From Brachybacterium sp. FME24 (lineage in GTDB: Bacteria; Actinomycetota; Actinomycetes; Actinomycetales; Dermabacteraceae): DNA of 64,000 bases. The stretch spans positions 124,001-188,000 of the forward strand of contig NZ_JABUXV010000009.1 in assembly GCF_014897705.1 (NCBI RefSeq), in the 5' to 3' direction. Below are positions 6,461-37,541 of the stretch, piece after piece (the stretch's first letter is position 1; every line of letters begins with the position of its first letter). The position numbers were made by a program, and so were the translations under genes. Under the pieces are notes generated by a model. The model did not search any database. It was not told where the DNA came from and saw nothing but the letters and a program-made list of their open reading frames with translations.

Positions 6461-7615
6461 TCAGTTGTACGGGTCGGCGGCATCACGCATGCCATCTCCG
6501 ACGAAGTTGAGAGCGAGCACGGCCACGATGACGGCCACGCCGGGGAACATCAGCCAGGGCGTGGTGACCAGGCTGCGGACGCTCTGGGCCTCCTGGAGCA
6601 GTACGCCCCAGCTGACGACGGGAGCCTGCAGCCCGACGCCGAGGAAGCTCAACGAGGTCTCGGCCAGGATCATCCCGGGAACGGCGAGGGTGAGCGCCGC
6701 AATGATGTGGCTGCTGAACGACGGCAGCATGTGCCGCCGCATGATGCGCAGCGTCCTGGCGTTGTCCAGCCGTGCGGATTCGACGAAGTCCTCCTCGCGC
6801 AAGGCCAGGAATCTCCCACGGACTACGCGTGCGAGGTCCGTCCACCCGATGATCGAGAGGATGAGTGTGATCGCGAAGTAGCTGGTGATCGGTCCCCACG
6901 TCGTGGGAATCGAAGCTGCGAGCACCATCCACAGCGGGAGGCTGGGGATGCTCATGATGAACTCGATGAAGCGTTGGATGAGTGTGTCCGTCGCACCGCC
7001 GTAGTAGCCGGACAGGCCCCCGAAGAGAATGCCGAGGATCATCGACGCGGCCACGCCGACGAGTCCGATCGACATGGACACTCGTGTGCCGTGGACGATG
7101 CGACTGAACAAGTCCCGGCCGAGGGAATCGGTGCCCAGCAGGAACACCGGCTCCTCCGGATCGACGGGTCCGATGAGGTGCCGGTCCCACGGGATCAACC
7201 CCGCCAGCTTGTATTCCTCGCCCTTCACGAACAGGCCCAGTTCACGCACTGACGATTCGTCGACGGACATGGTGCGTCGACGGGACTCCTCGTCCTCCTC
7301 CACGGCGTAGCCGTTCGCGAATAATCCGACTCGAAAGCCGTCGCTCGTATCCACCAGGGAGATGACCTGCGGCGGAGCGTTCTGATACCCCTCGAACCTG
7401 CTTGCCGTTCCATGAGGTGCCACGAACTCGGCCAGGAGCGCGACAGCGTAGATGAGGATGAGGATGATCGCACTGATCGTCGCCACGCGGTGCCGACGGA
7501 ATCGGCGCCAGACCAGGTGCCAATACCCGCGTGTTGCCGAGACCGGCTCGTTCGATGCGTGCTCGAGAGCTTCGTCGGCCCCCTGCAGCACCTCACCGGA
7601 TTGCATGGACGTCAT
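6461..7615 (-). CDS. ABC transporter permease (OppC/DppC-like) with long periplasmic insert
   Basis: 384 residues from the ATG at 7615, four bases after the stop of the partner permease. TM1 is at about residues 40-62. A roughly 80-residue extracytoplasmic insert with many charged residues follows (FEGYQNAPPQ to IPWDRHLIGP). The permease core begins at FLLGTDSLGRDLFSRIVHGTRVS, the typical DppC entry motif. The EAA loop reads ESARLDNARTLRIMRRHMLP. The insert is longer than in classical dipeptide permeases and recalls family members that import oligosaccharides. Confidence 0.88.
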   Translation of the reverse strand: MTSMQSGEVLQGADEALEHASNEPVSATRGYWHLVWRRFRRHRVATISAIILILIYAVALLAEFVAPHGTASRFEGYQNAPPQVISLVDTSDGFRVGLFANGYAVEEDEESRRRTMSVDESSVRELGLFVKGEEYKLAGLIPWDRHLIGPVDPEEPVFLLGTDSLGRDLFSRIVHGTRVSMSIGLVGVAASMILGILFGGLSGYYGGATDTLIQRFIEFIMSIPSLPLWMVLAASIPTTWGPITSYFAITLILSIIGWTDLARVVRGRFLALREEDFVESARLDNARTLRIMRRHMLPSFSSHIIAALTLAVPGMILAETSLSFLGVGLQAPVVSWGVLLQEAQSVRSLVTTPWLMFPGVAVIVAVLALNFVGDGMRDAADPYN

Positions 7616-7619
7616 GCGA

Positions 7620-8612
7620 TCACCGCTTTCCGTAGCGAATTCGAGGATCGAGCCGGGCCAGGAGGACGTCGGAGATGAGCGTCCCGACGACGGTGAGGAC
7701 GCTGAGCAGGAGGAGGAAGCTCCCGGCGAGGTACATGTCCTGGCTCTCCAACGCACGGAGCATCACGGGGCCGGTGGTCGGAAGGTTCAGAACGACCGAC
7801 ACGATGATCTCGCCGGAGATCAGGGAGGGCAGCAACCAGCCGATCGTGGACACGATGGGACTGGCCGCGAGACGGGCCGGGTACTTCATCAGCAGTGATC
7901 CCTCGGTCAGACCTTTGGCTCGAGCGGTCGTGACGTAGGGGCGGTGGAGCTCGTCGAGGAGATTCGCTCGAACGATGCGCATCATTCCTGCTGTTCCTGC
8001 TGTCCCGATGATGACGATGGGTATCCACAGATTGCTGAGCAGGTCCAGGATTTTCCCCAGGTTCCAGCTGGACTCCGCGAATTCGGGGGAGAAGAGCGCC
8101 CCGACCGACTGGCCGAAGTAGCTGTAGGAGATATACATCAGCACGAGGGCGATGAGGAAGTTCGGAACCGCCAGCCCCAGGAATCCGATGAAGGTGAAGG
8201 TGTAGTCGGCCGGGGAATAGCGCTTGACGGCCGAGTACATGCCGACCGGGATCGCGACGGCCCACACGAAGGCCATCGAGGTCACGGACAGCAGCACGGT
8301 GAAACCGAAACGTTCCTTCAGGACGTCGGCGACGGGGGCGCTGTAGACGAAGGAGTGGCCGAAGTCCCCGTGGATGATGATTCCGGTGATCCAGCGCCAG
8401 TACTGCACCCAGATCGGCTCGTCCAAGCCGTACCGATTGCGGAGAGCTTCGAGCTGTGCGCGATCGACGTATTGACCTTCTGCTTCGAGCTTGGCAACGA
8501 CGGTGTTCAGGTAATCACCGGGAGGAGCCTGGATGACCAGGAAGGTCAGAATCGAGATCGCCAGCAGGGTGGGGACCATGTACAGGAGTCTTCGGGCGAT
8601 GTAGTGAACCAT
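7620..8612 (-). CDS. ABC transporter permease (OppB/DppB-like)
   Basis: 330 residues. The start MVHYIARRLLYMVPTLLAISILTFLVI is a typical DppB first transmembrane segment. DFGHSFVYSAPVADVLKERF and the EAA-type loop YVTTARAKGLTEGSLLMKYPARLA follow. About six transmembrane helices. The ATG at 8612 is inside the last codons of the binding-protein gene (stop at 8617), giving tight coupling. It pairs with the OppC-like permease just downstream. Confidence 0.9.
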   Translation of the reverse strand: MVHYIARRLLYMVPTLLAISILTFLVIQAPPGDYLNTVVAKLEAEGQYVDRAQLEALRNRYGLDEPIWVQYWRWITGIIIHGDFGHSFVYSAPVADVLKERFGFTVLLSVTSMAFVWAVAIPVGMYSAVKRYSPADYTFTFIGFLGLAVPNFLIALVLMYISYSYFGQSVGALFSPEFAESSWNLGKILDLLSNLWIPIVIIGTAGTAGMMRIVRANLLDELHRPYVTTARAKGLTEGSLLMKYPARLAASPIVSTIGWLLPSLISGEIIVSVVLNLPTTGPVMLRALESQDMYLAGSFLLLLSVLTVVGTLISDVLLARLDPRIRYGKR

Positions 8613-10935: not shown

Positions 10936-11880
10936 ATGAGTTCACCCCTGGCTGGTGTCGTGATTCCGGTGTGCACACCGCTGATCGATGATGGGCAATC
11001 CGTCGACGAGGAATCGCTCAGGCGGCACCTGACTCGTCTGGCCGATGCAGGCGTCAGCGGGGCTTTCGTGCTCGGCACCTCCGGTGAGTTCGGGTTCCTC
11101 ACCGATGGGCAGCGCAGGCAGGTGGTCGAGATTGCGGTCGACGAGGTCGGCGGCAGGCTGCCAGTGCTGATCGGCATTTCCGACACGGCGACGGCCCGTG
11201 CTGTAGCGCAAGCCGACATGTTGATTCCTCTGGGCGCGGATGCCGTGGTTGCGACGGCCCCCTTCTTCGCTGCCAGCGGGCCGATGGAGATCGCCGAACA
11301 CTTCCGCGGAATCAGGCGGGCTGTCGGTGAGGTGCCGTTGTTCGCCTACGAGAACCCCGGACGGGTCAATGGTCATTCGATCCCAGCAGATCTTGCCATC
11401 GAGCTGGCGGCCGAGGGTGCCGTTCAAGGGGTCAAGGATTCCTCGGGGGACCAGCAGTACCTTGAGGCTCTACTGCGCGGGCGGGAACGACATGGCCTCA
11501 GTGCATTGAGCATTCTCTCCGGGTCGGAAGTTGATGCGGACCGGGCGATGCAGGCAGGTGCCGATGGGCTGGTTCCCGGACTGGGCAATGTCGACCCACA
11601 CGGTTATGTTCGCCTGGTCGAGCTCGTGCAGGAGGGGGATGTGGAGAACGTGCGGCGTGAGCAGGAACGGCTCCGGCGCTTGTTCGGTATTGTCTCGATC
11701 GAGACCGGAGTGCCCATGGGGGACAGCTCTCGTGCCCTGGGGGCCTTCAAAGCCGCGATGAAAATGCTCGGAGCGATTGATCACGACCCCTGCGCTCCAC
11801 CCTCGGTGAGGCTCGATGATGGGGATCGTCAACGCATCAAGCAGATACTCGTCGAGTACGGACCCGAGGCAGGCGCGTGA
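10936..11880 (+). CDS. DapA/NanA-family aldolase, probable N-acetylneuraminate lyase-like
   Basis: 314 residues, normal for the family. The (beta/alpha)8 class I aldolase motifs are present: GTSGEFGFLT (47-56), catalytic Tyr138 in FAYENPGR and Schiff-base Lys167 in GVKDSSGD. The start at 10936 follows AAGGAGG at 8 bases. Family members include dihydrodipicolinate synthase, N-acetylneuraminate lyase and 2-keto-3-deoxy sugar acid aldolases. The sialidase and transporter next door favour cleavage of sialic acid to pyruvate and ManNAc, but specificity cannot be read from sequence alone. It is translationally coupled to the following regulator. Confidence 0.75.
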   Translation: MSSPLAGVVIPVCTPLIDDGQSVDEESLRRHLTRLADAGVSGAFVLGTSGEFGFLTDGQRRQVVEIAVDEVGGRLPVLIGISDTATARAVAQADMLIPLGADAVVATAPFFAASGPMEIAEHFRGIRRAVGEVPLFAYENPGRVNGHSIPADLAIELAAEGAVQGVKDSSGDQQYLEALLRGRERHGLSALSILSGSEVDADRAMQAGADGLVPGLGNVDPHGYVRLVELVQEGDVENVRREQERLRRLFGIVSIETGVPMGDSSRALGAFKAAMKMLGAIDHDPCAPPSVRLDDGDRQRIKQILVEYGPEAGA

Positions 11881-26334: not shown

Positions 26335-27006
26335 TCAACGCCTGAGCATCACCAGCACCGCGTCGACCAGCTCGGTGGACTGTCCGTCGTGGCCGGTGGT
26401 GGGGCGGGGGCGCTCCTCCGCCGTCTCGACCGTCCACCGGTCCGAGGGCAGGGCGAGCTCGGCGGCATTCTCGCGTGCGGTGAGCATGTTCGGCCCCCGG
26501 TGCGATGACTCGGCAGGGCCCTGAGCGTGGGCGATGACGACCAGGCGCCCTCCGGGGCGCACGGCCGACGCCGCCGCGCGGAGGATCCCCGCGCGGTCGA
26601 GCGCGACGTTCGACTGGAAGAACGACGCCGTCACCAGGTCCACCGACTCCGGCTCGGGCTGCCAAGCGGTGAGGTCCGTCGCCGTGAAGGTGGCGCCTTC
26701 GAGTCCACGTGCCGCGGCTTCCTCGCGGGCGCGGCCCACCGCGGTGGAGGAGATGTCCAGGCCATGCGCCTGCCAGCCCTGCTCGGCCAGCCACAGCACG
26801 TCCCCGCCCTCCCCGCAGCCCAGATCGATCACGGCGCCGGGCGTGAGCTCACCGACCACCGCGGCCATGGTGGCGTTGACCCGGCCGGACCACACGCGCT
26901 CGGTGTCGCCGTAGCGCTTCTCCCAGTACTCGGTGGGGGAGAGGTGGGCGTTGGGGTCCACGGGTGCGTGGTCGTGGGCAGTGCCGTGCTGGTGGGGTGC
27001 TGTCAT
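26335..27006 (-). CDS. Class I SAM-dependent methyltransferase (paralogue A)
   Basis: 223 residues from the ATG at 27006. Motif I is VIDLGCGEGGDVLWLA, followed by acidic LDISSTAVGRAREE and motif IV DLVTASFFQSNV. The His-rich N terminus HQHGTAHDH could bind metal. It belongs to the TehB/thiopurine-like small-molecule methyltransferases by pattern. A paralogue at 36567-37262 shares most of its length. The open frame continues 36 codons upstream to a GTG, and that extension is also conserved in the paralogue. Confidence 0.85.
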   Translation of the reverse strand: MTAPHQHGTAHDHAPVDPNAHLSPTEYWEKRYGDTERVWSGRVNATMAAVVGELTPGAVIDLGCGEGGDVLWLAEQGWQAHGLDISSTAVGRAREEAAARGLEGATFTATDLTAWQPEPESVDLVTASFFQSNVALDRAGILRAAASAVRPGGRLVVIAHAQGPAESSHRGPNMLTARENAAELALPSDRWTVETAEERPRPTTGHDGQSTELVDAVLVMLRR

Positions 27007-27531
27007 GCGGCGAGCCTGGCAGATGCCACGGTGCAGTGACGACGCTCTTGCAGACCGCGCATGCGTGAGCCGGCCAATCTTGCCGGGGACGCCGCGTCGG
27101 TAGATCGCTGTCACAGCCTGCGGGTTCAGCCGGGTCTGCGCTGCTCCGGGAGCCGATCAAGGGTCACCCTCAAGGATACGAACGCCTCTGACCAGCGCTG
27201 AGGAGGTGGACGCCGCCAGTCCGGAGACTGAAAAAGGCGTGCTCGGGTTCCTGCGCGCTGCCGCGATTGCCGGGGTGCTCCTCGGGTACTTGACGTTTGT
27301 CGTCATGGACCCCCGAAGGCGGCGATGTGCTCCACGGCGTGCTCGAGGGCGCCCCTCGGGGTCATCCCTGACCGGCTGCCTTGGCTTGTTCCCGCACCGC
27401 ACTGTCGAGAGTGGAAGCTGAAGAGAGAGCGCGGTTTGGGATAAGTAGTGGGACCTTCTGTCAAGGGGAGGGTGCGGCGCGAGCCGCTCGGTGATCGGGC
27501 CGCTGTTCGCCCCGGTTGACGTTCTCTGAGC
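27007..27531. other. Intergenic stretch upstream of methyltransferase A
   Basis: 525 bases. The first 110 correspond to the 36-codon extension shared with the paralogue. The 15-mer AGGTGGACGCCGCCA (27204-27218) recurs at 37478-37492, at nearly the same distance from the other methyltransferase. A 71-codon GTG frame (27206-27421) with one hydrophobic stretch is possible but unsupported. Nothing else is recognised. Confidence 0.4.
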
Positions 27532-30500
27532 TTAGGCAGCTGCGCGTGCGTCGAGATACAGCTCTACCGGCGCCTGACGGTCCAACTTCCACAGGATCTG
27601 GATCGGTTTCGAGCCCTCGCAGCTCTGGAACTGTGCGGTGCCCAAGCACGTGTACGGCTCGGAGCCGATATCACCGGTCTTTGCACGCCGTACGAACAGC
27701 ACCACATGAGACCCTTGCTTGCCGTGGCGCTGATACCGCAGCCCCGTGGGACTCGAGGCGCTGGTGGTGCTCTGCGACTCCCAGTGGAAGAGCTCTTGGT
27801 TGATCGCGTAGTCGTGGTAAAGCGTCGTCGGCGAGTAATCAGCCTCAGACTTCTTGAGCGTCACGAGAAGCGCGTCCGTCTTCAACGAAGGCATCCACTT
27901 GACGCCCTCACGAATCGCTCCGGGAGCACCAGCATCGAGAGTGCCTAGGCCCAGCCCAGCGAGTAGCTCCTCTCGGGAGTACTGCGCATGGGATCTCAGC
28001 GGGGAGACTCCCAGAGCGCCGGGGAGAGGCTGGGGGAGCGTGCGGACGGTGGCCTCGCGGTAGTCGAGGATCTGGGTCACCTCCTTCACGAGTTCTGGCA
28101 GGCTCCGAAGCCGCTCGAGGCCGGCTCGGATTCCGCCGCCATGTCCGGACGGCCAGAACGTGAAGTAGAGCATCGCAGCGGTGAGATCCGAGTCGAGGTT
28201 CGCCGGAAGTTCGGGGGCTGTGAGGAGCTCCCTGTACCGGTCGACGCGGTCCTGGTCATCGACATGCGCCAAGTTGCTAACCCTCTTGAACAGAGCGGTG
28301 GCCTCAGGGTCCGCGAGACGTGCGGCGTCCGCGGGGAAGGCCCAATCCACCAGTGCTTTCCATGACGCCGGCCGCTTCTCACCGCGGTAGGTGCGATCGC
28401 TGGCGCCGTATACGTCTGCCATGCCTCGCTCCGCATCGGTGAGGTAAGAACCCAGCGCGTAGCGACTTGGATCCGTCCCTGTGGGCAGGTGCTGCCGGAC
28501 GTCGGCAATCAGGTCCTTTGTGGCCAGGCGCAGCTGCTGCTTCACGTTGTGCAGAACGATGTCTCCGGAGACCTCGTCGAAGACGATCTGCGACCCGGGC
28601 GGAAGGAACGGGAACTTGTCCCGGATGCTCTTCTCTAGCCGATTGCGGGAGAGGCCAGTGAGTGCTCGATACTTGAGGTCGAAGCGGAAGTTCTCATTCT
28701 GGAGGCCGACGAAGTCGAGCACCGTGAGGACTGCTTTGCCTTCGGTACGGCGTAGGCCGCGCCCGAGTTGCTGCAGGAAAATCGTTGCTGACTGAGTCGG
28801 ACGCAGCATGAGGACCGTATCGATCATGGGGATGTCGAGGCCCTCGTTGAATATGTCTACCGCAAAGATGCACGCGAGTTTGCCGTCGCGAAGCCGCTGT
28901 AACCCTTCGCGCCTTTCCCCACTTCGCGACTCACCAGAGAGGGCGAGTGAGGGGATCCCGGCGGCGTTGAAGACCTCTGCCATGTAGTGCGCATGGTCCA
29001 CGCTTACGCAGAATCCGAGGGCCTTCATTCGGGAGGGATCGGTGACCTTGTCGGCGACGGTCTTCAGTACGATGCGAGCACGCGCGTCATTGCCCGTGTA
29101 GAGGGCAGAGAGCTGGCTGAGGTCGTAGCGCCCTCGTGTGAAGCGGATGCCCTGCAGGTCACTGCCATCGGCGACCCCGAAGTAGTGGAAGGGCACGAGC
29201 AGATCGGCCTTCAGCGCGTCCCACAGTCGAAGCTCGCTGGCTATGCGTCCGTCGAAGTAGAAGTCGGCGACGTTCACTCCGTCCGATCGCTCGGGTGTTG
29301 CAGTCAGGCCAAGGAGTTCACGCGGTGTGAAGTGGTCGAGTAACCGTCGGTATGTCGTGGCTTCGGCATGGTGGAACTCGTCGACAACGACTACGTCGAA
29401 GTGCGACGGATCCCAGCGCTCCATCTCGGCCTCCCGCGAGATCGACTGGACGGAGGCGAATACGTGGCGCCCCCGAGACGGGCGTGCTCCGCCAACGAGT
29501 AACTCACCGAACGCTCCGTCCTTGAGGACCTCGCGATAGGTGCGTAGGGCTTGCTCCAGAATCTCTTGGCGGTGGGCGATGAACAGCAGGCTCGGTCGCG
29601 GTCCATCCTGGGCGAGCCGCTTGTAGTCCAACGCCGCGATGACCGTTTTACCTGTGCCCGTGGCGGCGACGAGCAGGTTCCGATGCTGGTCGTGGGTTTC
29701 CCGCTCGGACTGCAGATCATCAAGCATGATCTGCTGATGCGGGTACGGGCGGACATCGAGGAGGCTGACGTTGACTTCTCCGTCGCCGCGCCGTGCCCCA
29801 TTCTTCGCAAGCATCTGGTCGAGGTACTCGGCATCAGTGTCCGGGTCATACGGTGCAAACGCCGAGTCGTCCCAATAGGTCGCGAAGGTTGTGGAAAACT
29901 TGTCGAGCAACGTTGGGGTCGCATGCTTGGACAGTCGAACGTTCCACTCCAGGCCATCGACCAGCGCTGCGCGGCTCATGTTCGAGCTGCCGACGTAGGC
30001 GGTGGGGAAACCGCTCTTGCGGTGGAACATCCACGCCTTCGCATGGAGGTGTGTGGACTGCGAGTCATAGTTGACCCGAACTTCAGCGCCAAGTTCCCGA
30101 ACGAAGTAGTCGAGTGCGCGGCGGTCAGTGGCACCGATGTACGTCGTGGTCAGCACTCGTATGGAGACGCCACGCTCAGCGGCAACGCGCAATGCATCCT
30201 CGAGAACCCGGATGCCGCTCCATTGCACGAAGGCACACAGCAGATCGATGTGGTCGGCACTCGCCATCTCGAGGCGAAGCTCGGAGCCGAGCTGCGGATC
30301 ACTGCGAGAGTTCGTGAACAGTGCGACATCAGTCAGAGGTGTCGAAGGCCGACGTGGAGGCGGCGACATAGGTGCTGTGACGGAGGTGAGGAGCTGCGGA
30401 CCAGACGCCACCGTTTCGGAGTGCACTGCGTCAGGGATCGCATGTAGTAGACGGTTCGCAGTCTCGATCTGCTCCTCCACCGGTAGCGAGGAGAGCGTTC

Positions 30501-30672
30501 TGGAAATGACCGCGCTCAAGTGTTGCGTGAGGACGTGTGGAGCATCCGCGGCATCGACGTCAGCGAAGGTCCGATCATGCGACTCTTGGGTCTGACCACC
30601 GAGGGCCGCGGAGAGCCCTGTCGTCACCAGAAGCTCATAGAGTCCGGGATCCAGAGCGTGAGTTCCACTCAT
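27532..30672 (-). CDS. PLD nuclease-SF2 helicase-DUF3427 fusion protein
   Basis: 1046 residues. Residues 115-270 are a phospholipase-D-type nuclease domain with HLHAK (208-212) and GSSN (228-231). Residues 305-640 are a superfamily 2 helicase: Walker A AATGTGKT (336-343), DEFH box (431-434), GLTATP (455-460), motif VI QLGRGLRR. The remaining 350 or so residues match the DUF3427 pattern (SYLTDAERGMADVYG, REGVKWMPSLKTDALLVTLKK, LFHWESQSTTS, GSHVVLFVRRAKT). Such proteins are widespread and suspected in DNA repair or phage defence. Its start overlaps the stop of the NUDIX gene (ATGA), so both are one operon. Confidence 0.9.
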   Translation of the reverse strand: MSGTHALDPGLYELLVTTGLSAALGGQTQESHDRTFADVDAADAPHVLTQHLSAVISRTLSSLPVEEQIETANRLLHAIPDAVHSETVASGPQLLTSVTAPMSPPPRRPSTPLTDVALFTNSRSDPQLGSELRLEMASADHIDLLCAFVQWSGIRVLEDALRVAAERGVSIRVLTTTYIGATDRRALDYFVRELGAEVRVNYDSQSTHLHAKAWMFHRKSGFPTAYVGSSNMSRAALVDGLEWNVRLSKHATPTLLDKFSTTFATYWDDSAFAPYDPDTDAEYLDQMLAKNGARRGDGEVNVSLLDVRPYPHQQIMLDDLQSERETHDQHRNLLVAATGTGKTVIAALDYKRLAQDGPRPSLLFIAHRQEILEQALRTYREVLKDGAFGELLVGGARPSRGRHVFASVQSISREAEMERWDPSHFDVVVVDEFHHAEATTYRRLLDHFTPRELLGLTATPERSDGVNVADFYFDGRIASELRLWDALKADLLVPFHYFGVADGSDLQGIRFTRGRYDLSQLSALYTGNDARARIVLKTVADKVTDPSRMKALGFCVSVDHAHYMAEVFNAAGIPSLALSGESRSGERREGLQRLRDGKLACIFAVDIFNEGLDIPMIDTVLMLRPTQSATIFLQQLGRGLRRTEGKAVLTVLDFVGLQNENFRFDLKYRALTGLSRNRLEKSIRDKFPFLPPGSQIVFDEVSGDIVLHNVKQQLRLATKDLIADVRQHLPTGTDPSRYALGSYLTDAERGMADVYGASDRTYRGEKRPASWKALVDWAFPADAARLADPEATALFKRVSNLAHVDDQDRVDRYRELLTAPELPANLDSDLTAAMLYFTFWPSGHGGGIRAGLERLRSLPELVKEVTQILDYREATVRTLPQPLPGALGVSPLRSHAQYSREELLAGLGLGTLDAGAPGAIREGVKWMPSLKTDALLVTLKKSEADYSPTTLYHDYAINQELFHWESQSTTSASSPTGLRYQRHGKQGSHVVLFVRRAKTGDIGSEPYTCLGTAQFQSCEGSKPIQILWKLDRQAPVELYLDARAAA

Positions 30673-31094
30673 CGATTCCCCAATTGCTGCGGCGCGCCGA
30701 GGACGAAGGCATCCTGGATGATTGGCACATCTGCTGGCGACCAGTCCAGCGTGGCCAACTCTTCAGGCGCGAACCACCCCATCTGGTCGTGATCCGTGCT
30801 GGCCGTCGGCGCATCGAATAGCAGCTCTGCCCAGTAGCACGCTAGATCGATGAGTGCTGAGCCCACCGGGGTCGTATGTCGCCCGGCCAGATCACCGACG
30901 TGCACCTCGATGCCCAACTCTTCGGCGAGCTCACGGTGCAGCGCCCCCGTCGGCTGCTCACCGGGCTCGACCTTGCCCCCGGGGAACTCCCACAGGCCGC
31001 CGGCGCTGCGCTCAGGGCTGCGGCGTGCAGCGAAGACGAGACCATCACGGACGATGACCGCTCCCACGACGTGGATTGGTGGTTGCGATGACAT
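30669..31094 (-). CDS. NUDIX hydrolase (MutT/8-oxo-dGTPase-like)
   Basis: 141 residues from the ATG at 31094, preceded by GAGGGAG. The Nudix box is complete: Gly40-x5-Glu46-x7-Arg54-Glu55-x2-Glu58-Glu59-x-Gly61 (GKVEPGEQPTGALHRELAEE, then LGI). FPGGK and VGAVIVRDGLVFAARR are MutT-like, so it may hydrolyse oxidised or modified (d)NTPs. It is the first gene of the operon with the PLD-helicase, coupled by ATGA. Confidence 0.9.
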   Translation of the reverse strand: MSSQPPIHVVGAVIVRDGLVFAARRSPERSAGGLWEFPGGKVEPGEQPTGALHRELAEELGIEVHVGDLAGRHTTPVGSALIDLACYWAELLFDAPTASTDHDQMGWFAPEELATLDWSPADVPIIQDAFVLGAPQQLGNR

Positions 31095-31307
31095 GCGGCT
31101 CCCTCTTACTGGTCCCGGCTGGTCAGCCCATCGTAAGAGCGACAGGAGACACGTGGCGCTGAAATCCGTACAACGTGCCTGGCTGGGGAAACTCGTCGCC
31201 GTCCCAATGTCGCAATTACCGTTCATCCTGCGCGAGGTTCTGAATATGGCCGCTGCGTTCTCCCCGCAGCTATTCCGTCTGTCGGCCCACCGTGCCACCA
31301 TCTGTTC

Positions 31308-31802
31308 ATGAAGCCGCCGAAGCTCGTCGCCATGTCCAACTATGAGACCGAGAACCGCGCGATCGCCTACGTCATCGCCTACGAACGCGCGGCTGGCCGC
31401 GCCGCAGTCGACACCCACCACATCCCAGGCAGTCTCGTCGATGTCGAGAGCGTCGACGACGTTACGGGCGAGAAGCGGTTGATCGAGATCAAGGCCTTCG
31501 GCGGCACCGGCTGCGTTGACTTCCTCTGGCTCGAGCCGAACCAGGTCGAGGCGCTCGAGCAGGTCCAAGGCTTCCACCACTACTTCGTCACCAACGTCCG
31601 CTCCGCCGATCCGGCGGAGATGCTGGTCCTCGGCCTCGCTGAACGATGCCGACGAGCCCTCCCGCGAGTTCGCCGGGACGTCGACCCCCGCCTGGTGGAG
31701 CGCGAGATGATCGCCGACCAGCTCCTCGCCGCGCTCCCGCCGACCGAGCCCAGTGCGGACGACGACGCCTACGCCGCCGGGCTCCGCGACCTGCTCGCGT
31801 AG
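31308..31802 (+). CDS. DUF3883 domain protein (nuclease-like fold)
   Basis: 164 residues from the ATG at 31308. A second ATG at 31332 (MSNYETENRAIAYVIAYERA) fits family starts equally well. The core VDVESVDDVTGEKRLIEIKAFGG has the D-x(n)-E-x-K pattern typical of DUF3883, a PD-(D/E)XK-related domain found in restriction and defence proteins. FHHYFVTNVRSAD follows. It is divergent from the helicase-NUDIX operon, with 213 bases between starts. No ribosome-binding site is obvious at 31308. Confidence 0.75.
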   Translation: MKPPKLVAMSNYETENRAIAYVIAYERAAGRAAVDTHHIPGSLVDVESVDDVTGEKRLIEIKAFGGTGCVDFLWLEPNQVEALEQVQGFHHYFVTNVRSADPAEMLVLGLAERCRRALPRVRRDVDPRLVEREMIADQLLAALPPTEPSADDDAYAAGLRDLLA

Positions 31803-36566: not shown

Positions 36567-37262
36567 TCAGCGCCGCCTCAGCACGAGCACCGCGTCGACG
36601 TGCTCCCCGGGTGCGCCGTCGGGGCTGACGGCGGGGCGCCGACGCTCCTCGGCGACCTCCACCGCCCAGTCCTCGACGGGCCGGGCGAGCTGCTCCGCCT
36701 CCGTGCGCACGTCGATCATGCGCTCGATCAGGTGCGCGGGGGGATGGTCGGCCCACGACGGTGGCGCCGCATGGGAGATGGTCACCAGGTGCCCGCCGGG
36801 GCGGATCGCGGAGGCGGCACGGCGCAGGATCTCCCTCCGCTCCAGTGCCACCTCGGACTGGAAGAACGACGCGGTCACGAGGTCGACGCTGTCCGGCTCC
36901 GGCTGCCAGGCATCGAGATCGGTCGCGGCGAAGGTCGCTTGCTCGAGGCCGCGCTCGGCGGCTTCGGCTCGGCCACGGCCGACGGCTGTCTCGGAGATGT
37001 CCAGTCCGCGGGCCTGCCAGCCGTGCTCGGCGAGCCACAGCACGTCCCCGCCCTCCCCGCAGCCCAGGTCGATCGAGGTGCCGGGCTCGAACTCGCCGAC
37101 CACGTCGGCGAGCGTGGCGTTGACTTTCCCGGACCAGATGCGCTCCAGGCCCGAGTAGCGCTGCTCCCAGTGCTCGACGGGGGAGAGGGAAGGTTCCGCG
37201 GCGCGATACTCGGCGGTGTCACCGTGCTGGTGCTCGACGGCGTGCTGGGGGTGTCCGGTCAT
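36567..37262 (-). CDS. Class I SAM-dependent methyltransferase (paralogue B)
   Basis: 231 residues from the ATG at 37262. SAM motif I SIDLGCGEGGDVLWLA, acidic LDISETAVGRGRAE, motif IV DLVTASFFQSEVAL. The N terminus is His-rich (HPQHAVEHQHGD). Closely similar to paralogue A, with differences in the C-terminal third (HLIERMIDVRTEAEQLARPV), suggesting older divergence. An in-frame 36-codon 5' extension to a GTG at 37370 is shared with A. Confidence 0.85.
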   Translation of the reverse strand: MTGHPQHAVEHQHGDTAEYRAAEPSLSPVEHWEQRYSGLERIWSGKVNATLADVVGEFEPGTSIDLGCGEGGDVLWLAEHGWQARGLDISETAVGRGRAEAAERGLEQATFAATDLDAWQPEPDSVDLVTASFFQSEVALERREILRRAASAIRPGGHLVTISHAAPPSWADHPPAHLIERMIDVRTEAEQLARPVEDWAVEVAEERRRPAVSPDGAPGEHVDAVLVLRRR

Positions 37263-37541
37263 GGGGAGAGACTGGCAGATCGGCCGCCGCCGCGACAGGA
37301 ATCTTGCGCACGGAGCCGCCCCGACGGGCCCCGCCTTGCGTTTCGCGCCGCTCCGGTAGATCGGCGTCACGTCCAGCGGTTCTGCCCGGTCACGGCCGAC
37401 CGGGTGTCACCGCGGGTGGGGGATCGAGACGAGGGCGGGCTCCGCGAAGACGACCACACGCAGGAGCCGCGCCGGGTAGGTGGACGCCGCCACCCCGACC
37501 TTGCGCAAGCGGGTGACGGACTTCCTCCTGACCCGACAGCC

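Follow-up and report, generated by a model that had tools for sequence, protein, structure and literature searches.

Type IV restriction enzymes are generally assumed to work without a partner, since the host genome lacks the mark that they attack. Why, then, would a gene for such an enzyme be coupled to a gene for an intact NUDIX hydrolase? The question is raised by a locus of Brachybacterium sp. FME24 (assembly GCF_014897705.1, contig NZ_JABUXV010000009.1). The window is the whole stretch of DNA that was analysed, 64,000 nucleotides long, at positions 124,001–188,000 of the forward strand. The coordinates below count from its first letter.

Layout of the Locus

27532–30672, minus strand: SauUSI-type modification-dependent restriction enzyme, 1046 amino acids, specificity by analogy
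30669–30672, minus strand: ATGA overlap of 4 nt, stop of the NUDIX gene and start of the helicase gene
30669–31094, minus strand: NudG/MutT2-like NUDIX hydrolase, 141 amino acids, substrate by analogy
31095–31307, no strand: intergenic stretch of 213 bp, 5' of the NUDIX gene, presumed to hold the operon promoter
31308–31802, plus strand: divergent DUF3883/NOV_C reading frame, with an internal deletion and a partial frameshift compared with relatives

Within the large protein, three functional units can be placed.

Residues 157–267: PLD nuclease (H210-x-K212; GSSN at 228–231)
Residues 308–641: SF2 ATPase (ATGTGKT, DEFHH, QLGRGLRR)
Residues 890–1039: DUF3427/SRA-like reader (D954 and W964, aligned with D858 and W868 of SauUSI)

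The reading frames, domains, ATGA coupling, intact NUDIX gene and 213-bp gap described in the initial annotation were all confirmed. The NUDIX stop codon overlaps the helicase ATG, and all 11 Brachybacterium copies that were compared offer a predicted start, ATG or GTG, that gives the same 4-nt overlap.

A SauUSI-Like Restriction Enzyme

The large protein belongs to the SauUSI-like class of type IV restriction enzymes, with the PLD nuclease, SF2 ATPase and SRA-fold reader of that class all present. All four Pfam matches lie above their cut-offs: PLDc_2 (157–267, 43.9 bits against a cut-off of 27), ResIII (308–462, 124.9 bits), Helicase_C (547–641, 49.8 bits) and DUF3427 (890–1039, 57.4 bits). 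The PADLOC model mREase_IV matches residues 108–1040 at 1071 bits, and the SauUSI structure (PDB 7clg) is matched with an E-value of 1.2e-83. Both H210 and K212 of the nuclease are invariant in 24 of 24 sequences, as are the SF2 helicase motifs; the Glu that follows the two nuclease residues is not kept.

The reader domain was modelled with a pLDDT of 87.7. A structure search with this model finds SauUSI first (E 2e-5, TM-score 0.55), followed by weaker matches to SUVH6, LpnPI, AbaSI, UHRF1 and PvuRts1I. An SRA-fold reader at the C-terminus is supported by hhalign at 95%, and its pocket Asp and Trp are invariant (32/32).

SauUSI likewise carries a PLD nuclease, an SF2 ATPase and a DUF3427/SRA reader in one chain, with the same pocket Asp and Trp. 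In the S. aureus record, a NUDIX gene of the same kind precedes the SauUSI gene, with 1 nt between stop and start. The two enzymes also differ. The Brachybacterium protein is about 90 residues longer at its N-terminus and falls into PADLOC subfamily PDLC03659, whereas SauUSI falls into PDLC03658. The Glu of the published SauUSI motif H-x-K-x4-E is replaced by His (H217), and the SauUSI pocket residues Tyr831 and Phe841 align with Trp and Leu. According to PMC3874153, SauUSI is functional by itself both in vitro and inside E. coli.

Because the large protein is of the SauUSI-like class, its target is probably modified DNA and not merely foreign DNA. The initial annotation, which had a nuclease-helicase acting on foreign DNA, is supported as to the action and corrected as to the target by the mREase_IV and 7clg matches. 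It had also given no named system for this exact trio of genes, but the large protein does belong to a named class. Matches to SauUSI-like proteins also occur in eight phage records, none of them annotated; six of the eight are fecal contigs of 6–17 kb.

A NudG-Like NUDIX Hydrolase

The smaller protein matches the Pfam NUDIX family (E 6.4e-20, 72 bits) and has a full Nudix box. Among PDB entries it matches E. coli NudG (2rrk), 5x1x and MutT2 (5zrc) best, all of them ahead of MutT (1mut, 34 bits compared with 90 for NudG). Over the stretch compared, the letters of 5x1x are identical to those of the NUDIX protein beside SauUSI. The base-pocket column, the cytosine-reading position of NudG (D118), holds Asp in all 43 rows, those of housekeeping copies among them; MutT carries Asn there.

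The Nudix box, pocket Asp and structural matches liken the protein to E. coli NudG (Orf135) and M. smegmatis MutT2. These two are housekeeping genes, whereas the Brachybacterium gene is an additional copy of patchy occurrence, and it is coupled to a gene for restriction. The protein also stays below the cut-off of the NudG equivalog model (PRK10546, NCBIfam; 102.8 against 156 bits), and for this reason it is called NudG-like and not NudG, and its substrate is assigned by analogy. A housekeeping paralogue is encoded elsewhere in the same genome (C39:97593), and such a paralogue may be enough when there is no coupled partner.

NudG, MutT2 and an enzyme from B. fragilis are described in published work as preferring 5-methyl- or 5-hydroxymethyl-dCTP. 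By analogy, the NUDIX protein probably destroys building blocks of the 5-methyl-dCTP type. No relevant literature was found on 5x1x, nor on MutT2 with 5-methyl-CTP.

Pairing within Brachybacterium

The pair is not a core feature of the genus: 13 of 38 Brachybacterium genomes carry it, and the site is patchily occupied, in keeping with the mosaic location first ascribed to it. The NUDIX gene lies directly upstream of the helicase gene in all 12 evaluable copies, so the pairing is more than chance. Across 11 pairs, distances among the helicases correlate with those among the NUDIX proteins (Mantel r 0.88; 0 of 5000 permutations), as shared descent alone would also give.

The NUDIX gene can persist without the helicase, as in genomes G008, G017 and G037. 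Where no whole helicase accompanies the NUDIX gene (four genes), end branches are longer than in eight paired genes (p 0.016), a comparison of 12 rows that depends on sampling. At two loci, L172 and L176, no restriction gene was recognised beside the NUDIX gene.

C5-methyltransferases are rarer in genomes with the helicase (3/13 versus 14/25, two-sided p 0.086), which is only suggestive; strict incompatibility was rejected, and three carriers hold both. An SRA-HNH identity was also rejected for the convergent HNH_2 neighbours in genomes G011 and G012, as no PDB match supports it. They are kept as HNH_2 and left out of the plasmid-collection count given below.

Partner Exchange beyond the Genus

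NUDIX genes paired with SauUSI-type genes are also found in S. aureus, three lactobacilli and Hymenobacter. When low-identity loci from the phylum were opened, the pairing was found in 8 of 11; the NUDIX gene is convergent, and not co-operonic, in six of these eight. Among the 25 phylum genomes with both genes, the two are adjacent in seven (six without the window's genome), compared with 0.044 expected. As a control, type I restriction genes were adjacent to the NUDIX gene in 0 of 26 cases.

The same NUDIX gene also occurs with unrelated partners. A gene for a modification-dependent enzyme adjoins it in 15 of the 17 plasmid-collection loci opened. The partners include SauUSI, McrA-like HNH, EVE-HNH, MrcB_N-HNH and GmrSD/AspBHI-like enzymes, and a second, MazG-like pyrophosphohydrolase is present in 3 of the 17. 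In Sphingomonas and Priestia, relatives of the EVE-HNH enzyme VcaM4I (PDB 6yex) and of EcoKMcrA (6ghc) replace SauUSI beside the NUDIX gene. These differ from SauUSI in having unrelated HNH nucleases and readers.

The adjacency of NUDIX and SauUSI genes has been noted once before. A figure legend from 2020 (PMC7641849, Fig. 9) places homologues of MutT next to those of SauUSI in Streptococcus, the same adjacency as in Brachybacterium. Section 11 of that article proposes no function and does not extend the observation to other modification-dependent enzymes, and no stated function for the adjacency was found in the literature.

The pairing is far from universal. Among 80 genome loci with a helicase of the window's subfamily, a Nudix box lies within 500 bp in only four (one from Brachybacterium, one weak), and none of 29 loci of the phylum that were examined has a NUDIX gene of the same kind beside such a helicase. 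The idea that all SauUSI-like enzymes have a NUDIX partner was rejected: in the window's subfamily, most members from actinobacteria lack one. No other neighbour conserved across genera was recognised in the helicase-neighbour clusters examined. When 29 chromosomal NUDIX loci of the phylum were searched with 14 query proteins, a partner lay within 1.5 kb in only two; the idea that every NUDIX gene of this kind has a restriction partner fails on the other 27. Most chromosomal copies stand alone, and the NUDIX gene is not obligatory for SauUSI-like enzymes.

Two further arrangements stand outside these counts. MazG-like genes lie about 2 kb from the helicase at loci L062, L197 and L051, and NUDIX genes of other types lie just 3' of the helicase at two Streptomyces loci (L023, L066).

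A Proposed Self-Protected Type IV Unit

The model that we favour, and consider rather better than even, is a self-protected type IV defence unit of two genes with coupled translation, in which the NUDIX enzyme keeps 5-methyl- and 5-hydroxymethyl-dCTP out of host DNA. Both specificities are predicted from relatives. The SRA-like DUF3427 domain would read 5-methyl- or 5-hydroxymethylcytosine in incoming DNA. The SF2 ATPase would then translocate, and the PLD nuclease would shred the DNA. Modified cytosine could reach the nucleotide pool by chance or by salvage from the shredded invader, through putative rephosphorylation of 5-methyl-dCMP. The NUDIX enzyme would hydrolyse 5-methyl-dCTP and 5-hydroxymethyl-dCTP to the monophosphate. 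Its main task would be to bar modified cytosine from new host DNA and so spare that DNA from attack by the cell's own nuclease. Sanitation of the pool would thus form the self-protection half of modification-dependent restriction, a role suggested by genomic context.

A different model places the NUDIX enzyme on the attacking side. It would destroy the 5-hydroxymethyl-dCTP, or a similar nucleotide, of cytosine-replacing phages, starving their replication or forcing them to make unmodified DNA that is open to other restriction systems. The B. fragilis enzyme Q5LBB1 is reported to hydrolyse 5-hydroxymethyl-dCTP about as fast as 5-methyl-dCTP (PMC5158307). PADLOC also flags the family as a phage-defence candidate, PDC-S07, which matches the NUDIX protein at E 1e-40 and the one beside SauUSI at 2.8e-55; its library line gives neither partner nor mechanism. 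However, such an activity would undercut the operon partner, whose cutting needs the modification, and a housekeeping paralogue of the same kind exists. This model is unlikely.

It is less likely still that the protein merely clears oxidised nucleotides in the manner of MutT, serving general mutation avoidance on a mobile island. Several relatives are annotated as MutT, a restriction partner is missing from most chromosomal copies, and a table in PMC5158307 lists NudG as also active on 2-hydroxy-dATP. Against this stand the weak match to MutT, the constant pocket Asp and the repeated coupling to modification-dependent enzymes, with none to type I restriction.

The initial annotation had the NUDIX enzyme removing either a modified or a signalling nucleotide. 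The first option is supported. The second, removal of a defence signal of the ADP-ribose or cyclic type, is highly improbable: NUDIX domains do occur in NAD-linked conflict systems (PMC7159879), but the subfamily is of the dNTP type, its closest characterised relatives act on 5-substituted dCTP, and no synthase/effector, cyclase or TIR gene is found among the neighbours scanned.

The Divergent DUF3883 Reading Frame

The initial annotation also counted the divergent gene as a third component, and in a three-gene system it would supply a second nuclease or a DNA-binding part. Its reading frame, 213 bp from the NUDIX start, matches NOV_C (PF13020, presumably the former DUF3883) at 30.4 bits. It lacks about 110 residues of a 277-residue relative, and the conserved stretch LNDADEP...PAWWS next to it is present only in another frame. 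The copy in the window is decayed and is not a sound gene.

DUF3883 is divergent beside the pair in genomes G000, G002 and G014, with remnants in G003 and G006. However, its presence in 4 of 13 pair-bearing genomes (one a fragment) versus 3 of 25 pair-free ones is not significant (p 0.20), and G026, G004 and G037 carry it in the same hotspot but have no helicase there. A third partner was rejected on these grounds together with the decay; the three-gene reading is largely refuted, with hardly any probability left to it, and the frame is judged to be a passenger of the hotspot.

Implications

If shredding of methylated DNA returns 5-methyl-dCMP to the pool, a type IV enzyme creates its own hazard, which a dedicated hydrolase such as that of the proposed self-protected unit would solve. 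Similar couplings, with several unrelated enzymes of this sort, recur in distant bacteria and hint at a general strategy against self-cutting. There is perhaps an even chance that a modified-dCTP pyrophosphohydrolase of housekeeping origin (NUDIX, sometimes also MazG-like) is an "antidote" encoded with the nuclease, one that has been combined time and again with readers and nucleases of unrelated kinds as the counterpart of the methyltransferase in restriction-modification systems. If true, this would give the accessory NUDIX family a function and bacteria a reason to keep active 5-methyl-dCTP hydrolases. It would also allow a neighbouring NUDIX gene to serve as a marker in genome searches for new modification-dependent nucleases.

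The locus and its large protein

The window is part of contig 67 in a genome of 4.8 Mb. Three features make up the locus:

27532-30672, minus strand: predicted SauUSI-type helicase ORF of 1046 aa, with PLDc_2, ResIII, Helicase_C and DUF3427 each above the Pfam cut-off
30669-31094, minus strand: NUDIX gene, upstream of the helicase gene and sharing an ATGA overlap with it
31308-31802, plus strand: divergent NOV_C/DUF3883 ORF, with a weak Pfam match that is yet above cut-off

With all domains above cut-off and the overlap present, the 1046-residue nuclease-helicase-DUF3427 fusion coupled by ATGA to a NUDIX gene, as described in the initial annotation, is borne out. The helicase gene has a G+C content of 62.3%, against 68.5% for the window.

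Two similar SAM methyltransferases (26335-27114 and 36567-37370) stand on either side of a 9-kb stretch containing the pair. Their relatives are found in several genomes near the pair or its hotspot, a patchily occupied region of Brachybacterium genomes. Near the hotspot there is also a cytosine/purine permease (PF02133; 37542-39074), whose close relatives adjoin the DUF3883-NUDIX-helicase cluster in two genomes (G002, G014) and a lone NUDIX gene in a third (G008).

The large protein is predicted to be a SauUSI-type enzyme. The PADLOC mREase_IV model matches it with 1071 bits over residues 108-1040, and the closest solved structure is SauUSI (PDB 7clg; E 1.2e-83, residues 120-701). SauUSI is described as a dimer with a PLD nuclease, an SF2 ATPase, a coupler and an SRA-fold reader, the last of which is thought to flip 5-methylcytosine out (PMC7913695).

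The structure of the C-terminal 187 residues was predicted from an alignment of 32 relatives (pLDDT 87.7). In Foldseek its top match was SauUSI (E 2e-5, TM-score 0.55), followed by SUVH6 with methylated DNA (2.7e-4); LpnPI, AbaSI, KRYPTONITE, UHRF1 and PvuRts1I matched more weakly (E >0.001). When aligned by hhalign to an S. aureus fragment (95%), D954 and W964 of the window protein correspond to SauUSI Asp858 and Trp868, and both are invariant in 32 of 32 alignment rows. In the hhalign comparison, Tyr831, Phe841 and Ile842 of SauUSI are replaced by Trp, Leu and Val. The published SauUSI nuclease motif, H-x-K-x4-E, retains its His and Lys, whereas the Glu position is His217. Because these residues and the nuclease-motif Glu are changed, the specificity of the window enzyme may be other than that of SauUSI.

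The NUDIX protein

The NUDIX protein is NudG/MutT2-like in sequence. Its top PDB match is the E. coli CTP pyrophosphohydrolase 2rrk (90 bits), compared with 77 bits for 5x1x, 71 for MutT2 (5zrc) and 34 for MutT. Over the aligned stretch compared, 5x1x is identical in sequence to the NUDIX beside SauUSI. The NudG equivalog model gives 102.8 of 156 bits, which is under the cut-off, and the protein is therefore not called NudG. PADLOC classes it as candidate PDC-S07. An Asp occupies the NudG Asp118 column in all rows of a 43-row NUDIX tree, housekeeping copies included. We take Asp118 to be the cytosine-reading residue of NudG; MutT presumably has Asn at this column. The NUDIX protein also matches PDB 3gwy, which we take to be B. 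fragilis Q5LBB1.

The published substrates of this subfamily are dCTPs changed at C5. The entry 2rrk is catalogued as a 5-methyl-dCTP pyrophosphatase (PMC5389931). Values reported for NudG are 1.3e6 per M per s with 5-methyl-dCTP versus 4.7e4 with CTP, and for Q5LBB1 4.8e6 with 5-methyl-dCTP and 4.4e6 with 5-hydroxymethyl-dCTP (PMC5158307).

Distribution in Brachybacterium

Of the 47 family genomes, 14 have the helicase; 13 of these belong to Brachybacterium, which is represented by 38 genomes. It is therefore not core, and the initial annotation's proposal of a defence module, to which a pair fixed in core genomes would be contrary, stands on this point. The NUDIX gene lies upstream in all 12 Brachybacterium copies whose upstream side is present (in G034 it is cut by a contig end); the 13th copy, in G031, was left out of this count because its contig begins within the gene. 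In the sole copy from another genus of the family (G043), the NUDIX gene is not adjacent. An ATG or GTG start giving a 4-nt overlap is available in 11/11 copies tested, with starts inferred. The helicase gene is interrupted in G006 and G034. Helicase and NUDIX protein distances are correlated (r 0.88), as shared descent alone would likewise give.

A distinct NUDIX clade, whose members adjoin either ABC transporter genes or a gene recognised by eye as RecQ-like, is taken as a housekeeping paralogue; the window's genome has one copy (C39:97593).

G008 and G037 have a NUDIX gene but no helicase at the hotspot, and G017 has such a lone copy at another site. In G023, the NUDIX gene is separated from an 83-residue helicase remnant by a C5-cytosine methyltransferase gene. 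End branches are longer in these four copies than in eight paired copies of the same clade (p 0.016); G000 and G001, of another clade, and G002, absent from the tree, were excluded. This fits a NUDIX that matters only alongside the nuclease, with sampling as an alternative cause.

The G023 locus (L180:5998-8946; methyltransferase at 7609-8511, minus strand) is a natural swap of a modification-dependent enzyme for a modifier. Near two lone NUDIX genes there are IS30-like (L178:8937-9971, in G037) and IS21-like (L173:6566-8128, in G017) transposases, named by eye, a possible route of helicase loss. In two other Brachybacterium genomes, HNH_2 genes are convergent with NUDIX copies (L170:5403-6362, G011; L171:5419-6219, G012).

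DUF3883

The divergent DUF3883 gene is judged to be a passenger. Seven of the 47 family genomes carry it, and within Brachybacterium it is present in 4/13 helicase carriers versus 3/25 non-carriers (p 0.20, counting a C-terminal fragment in G003). Relatives of the hotspot genes also surround it in G026 and G004, where the pair is missing. The window ORF lacks about 110 residues, and one conserved stretch remains out of frame only. On these three grounds it was rejected as a member of the system, and the conserved third gene of the initial annotation falls away. In the G026 hotspot (L188:5362-6735), a C5-cytosine methyltransferase and a Vsr-like gene (by eye) take the pair's place.

Pairing beyond the genus

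In S. aureus (NZ_CP077890), a NUDIX gene lies directly upstream of SauUSI with a stop-to-start gap of 1 nt. The corresponding spacing is 9 nt in L. curvatus, -14 in L. plantarum and 9 in Hymenobacter canadensis. L. fermentum has the same order, but its SauUSI gene is fragmented. Among plasmid-collection records with a SauUSI-like gene, the NUDIX gene is present in 5 of the 17 examined, and in 5 of the 6 with at least 44% identity to SauUSI, Fusobacterium being the exception.

Searches of 396 Actinomycetota genomes found a SauUSI-like match in 49 and this NUDIX in 86. Both occur in 25, and are adjacent in 7 (6 without the window's own) versus 0.044 expected. Eleven of 14 low-identity SauUSI-like places were examined: the NUDIX gene is adjacent in 8 and not present in the other 3. 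All 8 score higher against SauUSI than against the window protein; the NUDIX gene is upstream and co-oriented in 2 and convergent in 6. As a type I control, HSDR_N and this NUDIX fell within 10 kb in 0/26 genomes with both, among the HSDR_N matches listed. By eye, and among the matches listed, an HNH_2 gene is adjacent and divergent to the NUDIX gene in at least two phylum cases (G418, G386). In genome G362, two NUDIX genes (L269:4912-5274 and 11498-11866) lie on either side of a single SauUSI-type gene; one of them adjoins it in convergent orientation, and the other is located about 3.3 kb upstream.

The window's own subfamily is mostly without this NUDIX. Of 80 genome loci, 4 have a Nudix box no more than 500 bp from the helicase (L049, Brachybacterium; L083, Janibacter; L099, convergent; L118, weak), and one further box was seen among the 80. 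A Streptomyces locus (L066) has a distant NUDIX type downstream. This NUDIX was found in 0/29 phylum loci of the subfamily (flanks up to 1.5 kb, some shortened by contig ends; 7 further full-length members left out), one of which (L023) has a different NUDIX type downstream. Around the NUDIX gene itself, 2/29 phylum loci had a partner, both SauUSI-like (1.5-kb flanks, 14 query proteins). It is therefore mainly a housekeeping gene, with repeated recruitment.

Exchange of partners

Seventeen NUDIX loci of the plasmid collection were examined, drawn from 20 and 11 partly overlapping records; the records left out are four from E. coli, three from Klebsiella and one from L. amylolyticus. A modification-dependent restriction gene adjoins the NUDIX gene in 15; the other two are Klebsiella nudG and an Arthrobacter copy.

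Restriction partners of the NUDIX gene in the plasmid collection
SauUSI-like: 5 loci
McrA-like HNH, 4-nt overlap: 3 loci; one tested (PADLOC mREase_IV 1.6e-23; EcoKMcrA 6ghc 1.7e-22), the other two assigned by their similarity to this one
EVE-HNH, VcaM4I-like: 4 loci; two tested (6yex 4.9e-85, 1.4e-64), two by similarity
MrcB_N-HNH with MazG-like: 1 locus, Priestia
GmrSD_N with AspBHI_N-Mrr: 1 locus, L226:4941-9039, Lactobacillus amylolyticus plasmid, grouped with the same NUDIX
EVE-like with GmrSD-like: 1 locus, weak

The characterised partners have one property in common, the reading of cytosine altered at C5. SauUSI is active on both 5mC and 5hmC, the two marks for which EcoKMcrA is also listed (PMC3874153); 6YEX is the EVE-HNH enzyme VcaM4I (PMC7897488). 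The MrcB_N-HNH and GmrSD-like genes would share this reading by family assignment.

A MazG-like pyrophosphohydrolase gene lies downstream of SauUSI in L. plantarum and L. fermentum, and MazG-like genes form a second family of nucleotide cleaners accompanying modification-dependent enzymes:

L214:6898-7218 and L215:6951-7256: lactobacilli, after SauUSI
L261:4656-4985: Priestia, after MrcB_N-HNH

Proposed role

The simplest link between the two specificities is that the NUDIX enzyme would keep C5-changed dCTP out of host DNA. We infer this step of self-protection. SauUSI is reported to be active by itself (PMC3874153), which is consistent with a protective rather than a catalytic role for the NUDIX protein. 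A Pfam search of the window's own genome found no PF00145 methyltransferase match, and these methyltransferases are rarer in helicase carriers (3/13 versus 14/25 Brachybacterium genomes, p 0.086). An offensive role is unlikely, since such an enzyme would strip the mark that its restriction partner requires.

In the literature searched on SauUSI, DUF3427 or type IV restriction with NUDIX or MutT, the adjacency was noticed once, in a Fig. 9 legend where small "DNA repair" proteins beside Streptococcus SauUSI homologues are MutT homologues (PMC7641849); earlier mention is possible, and the text around that legend gives no function for it. A review from 2025 raises the possibility that 5hmdCTP made by phages is sensed (PMC12707154); its main text has no match to nudix or MutT.

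A SauUSI-type restriction enzyme by itself is ordinary. The finding is that it is coupled to a probable hydrolase of modified dCTP, and that this coupling recurs with unrelated modification-dependent enzymes.
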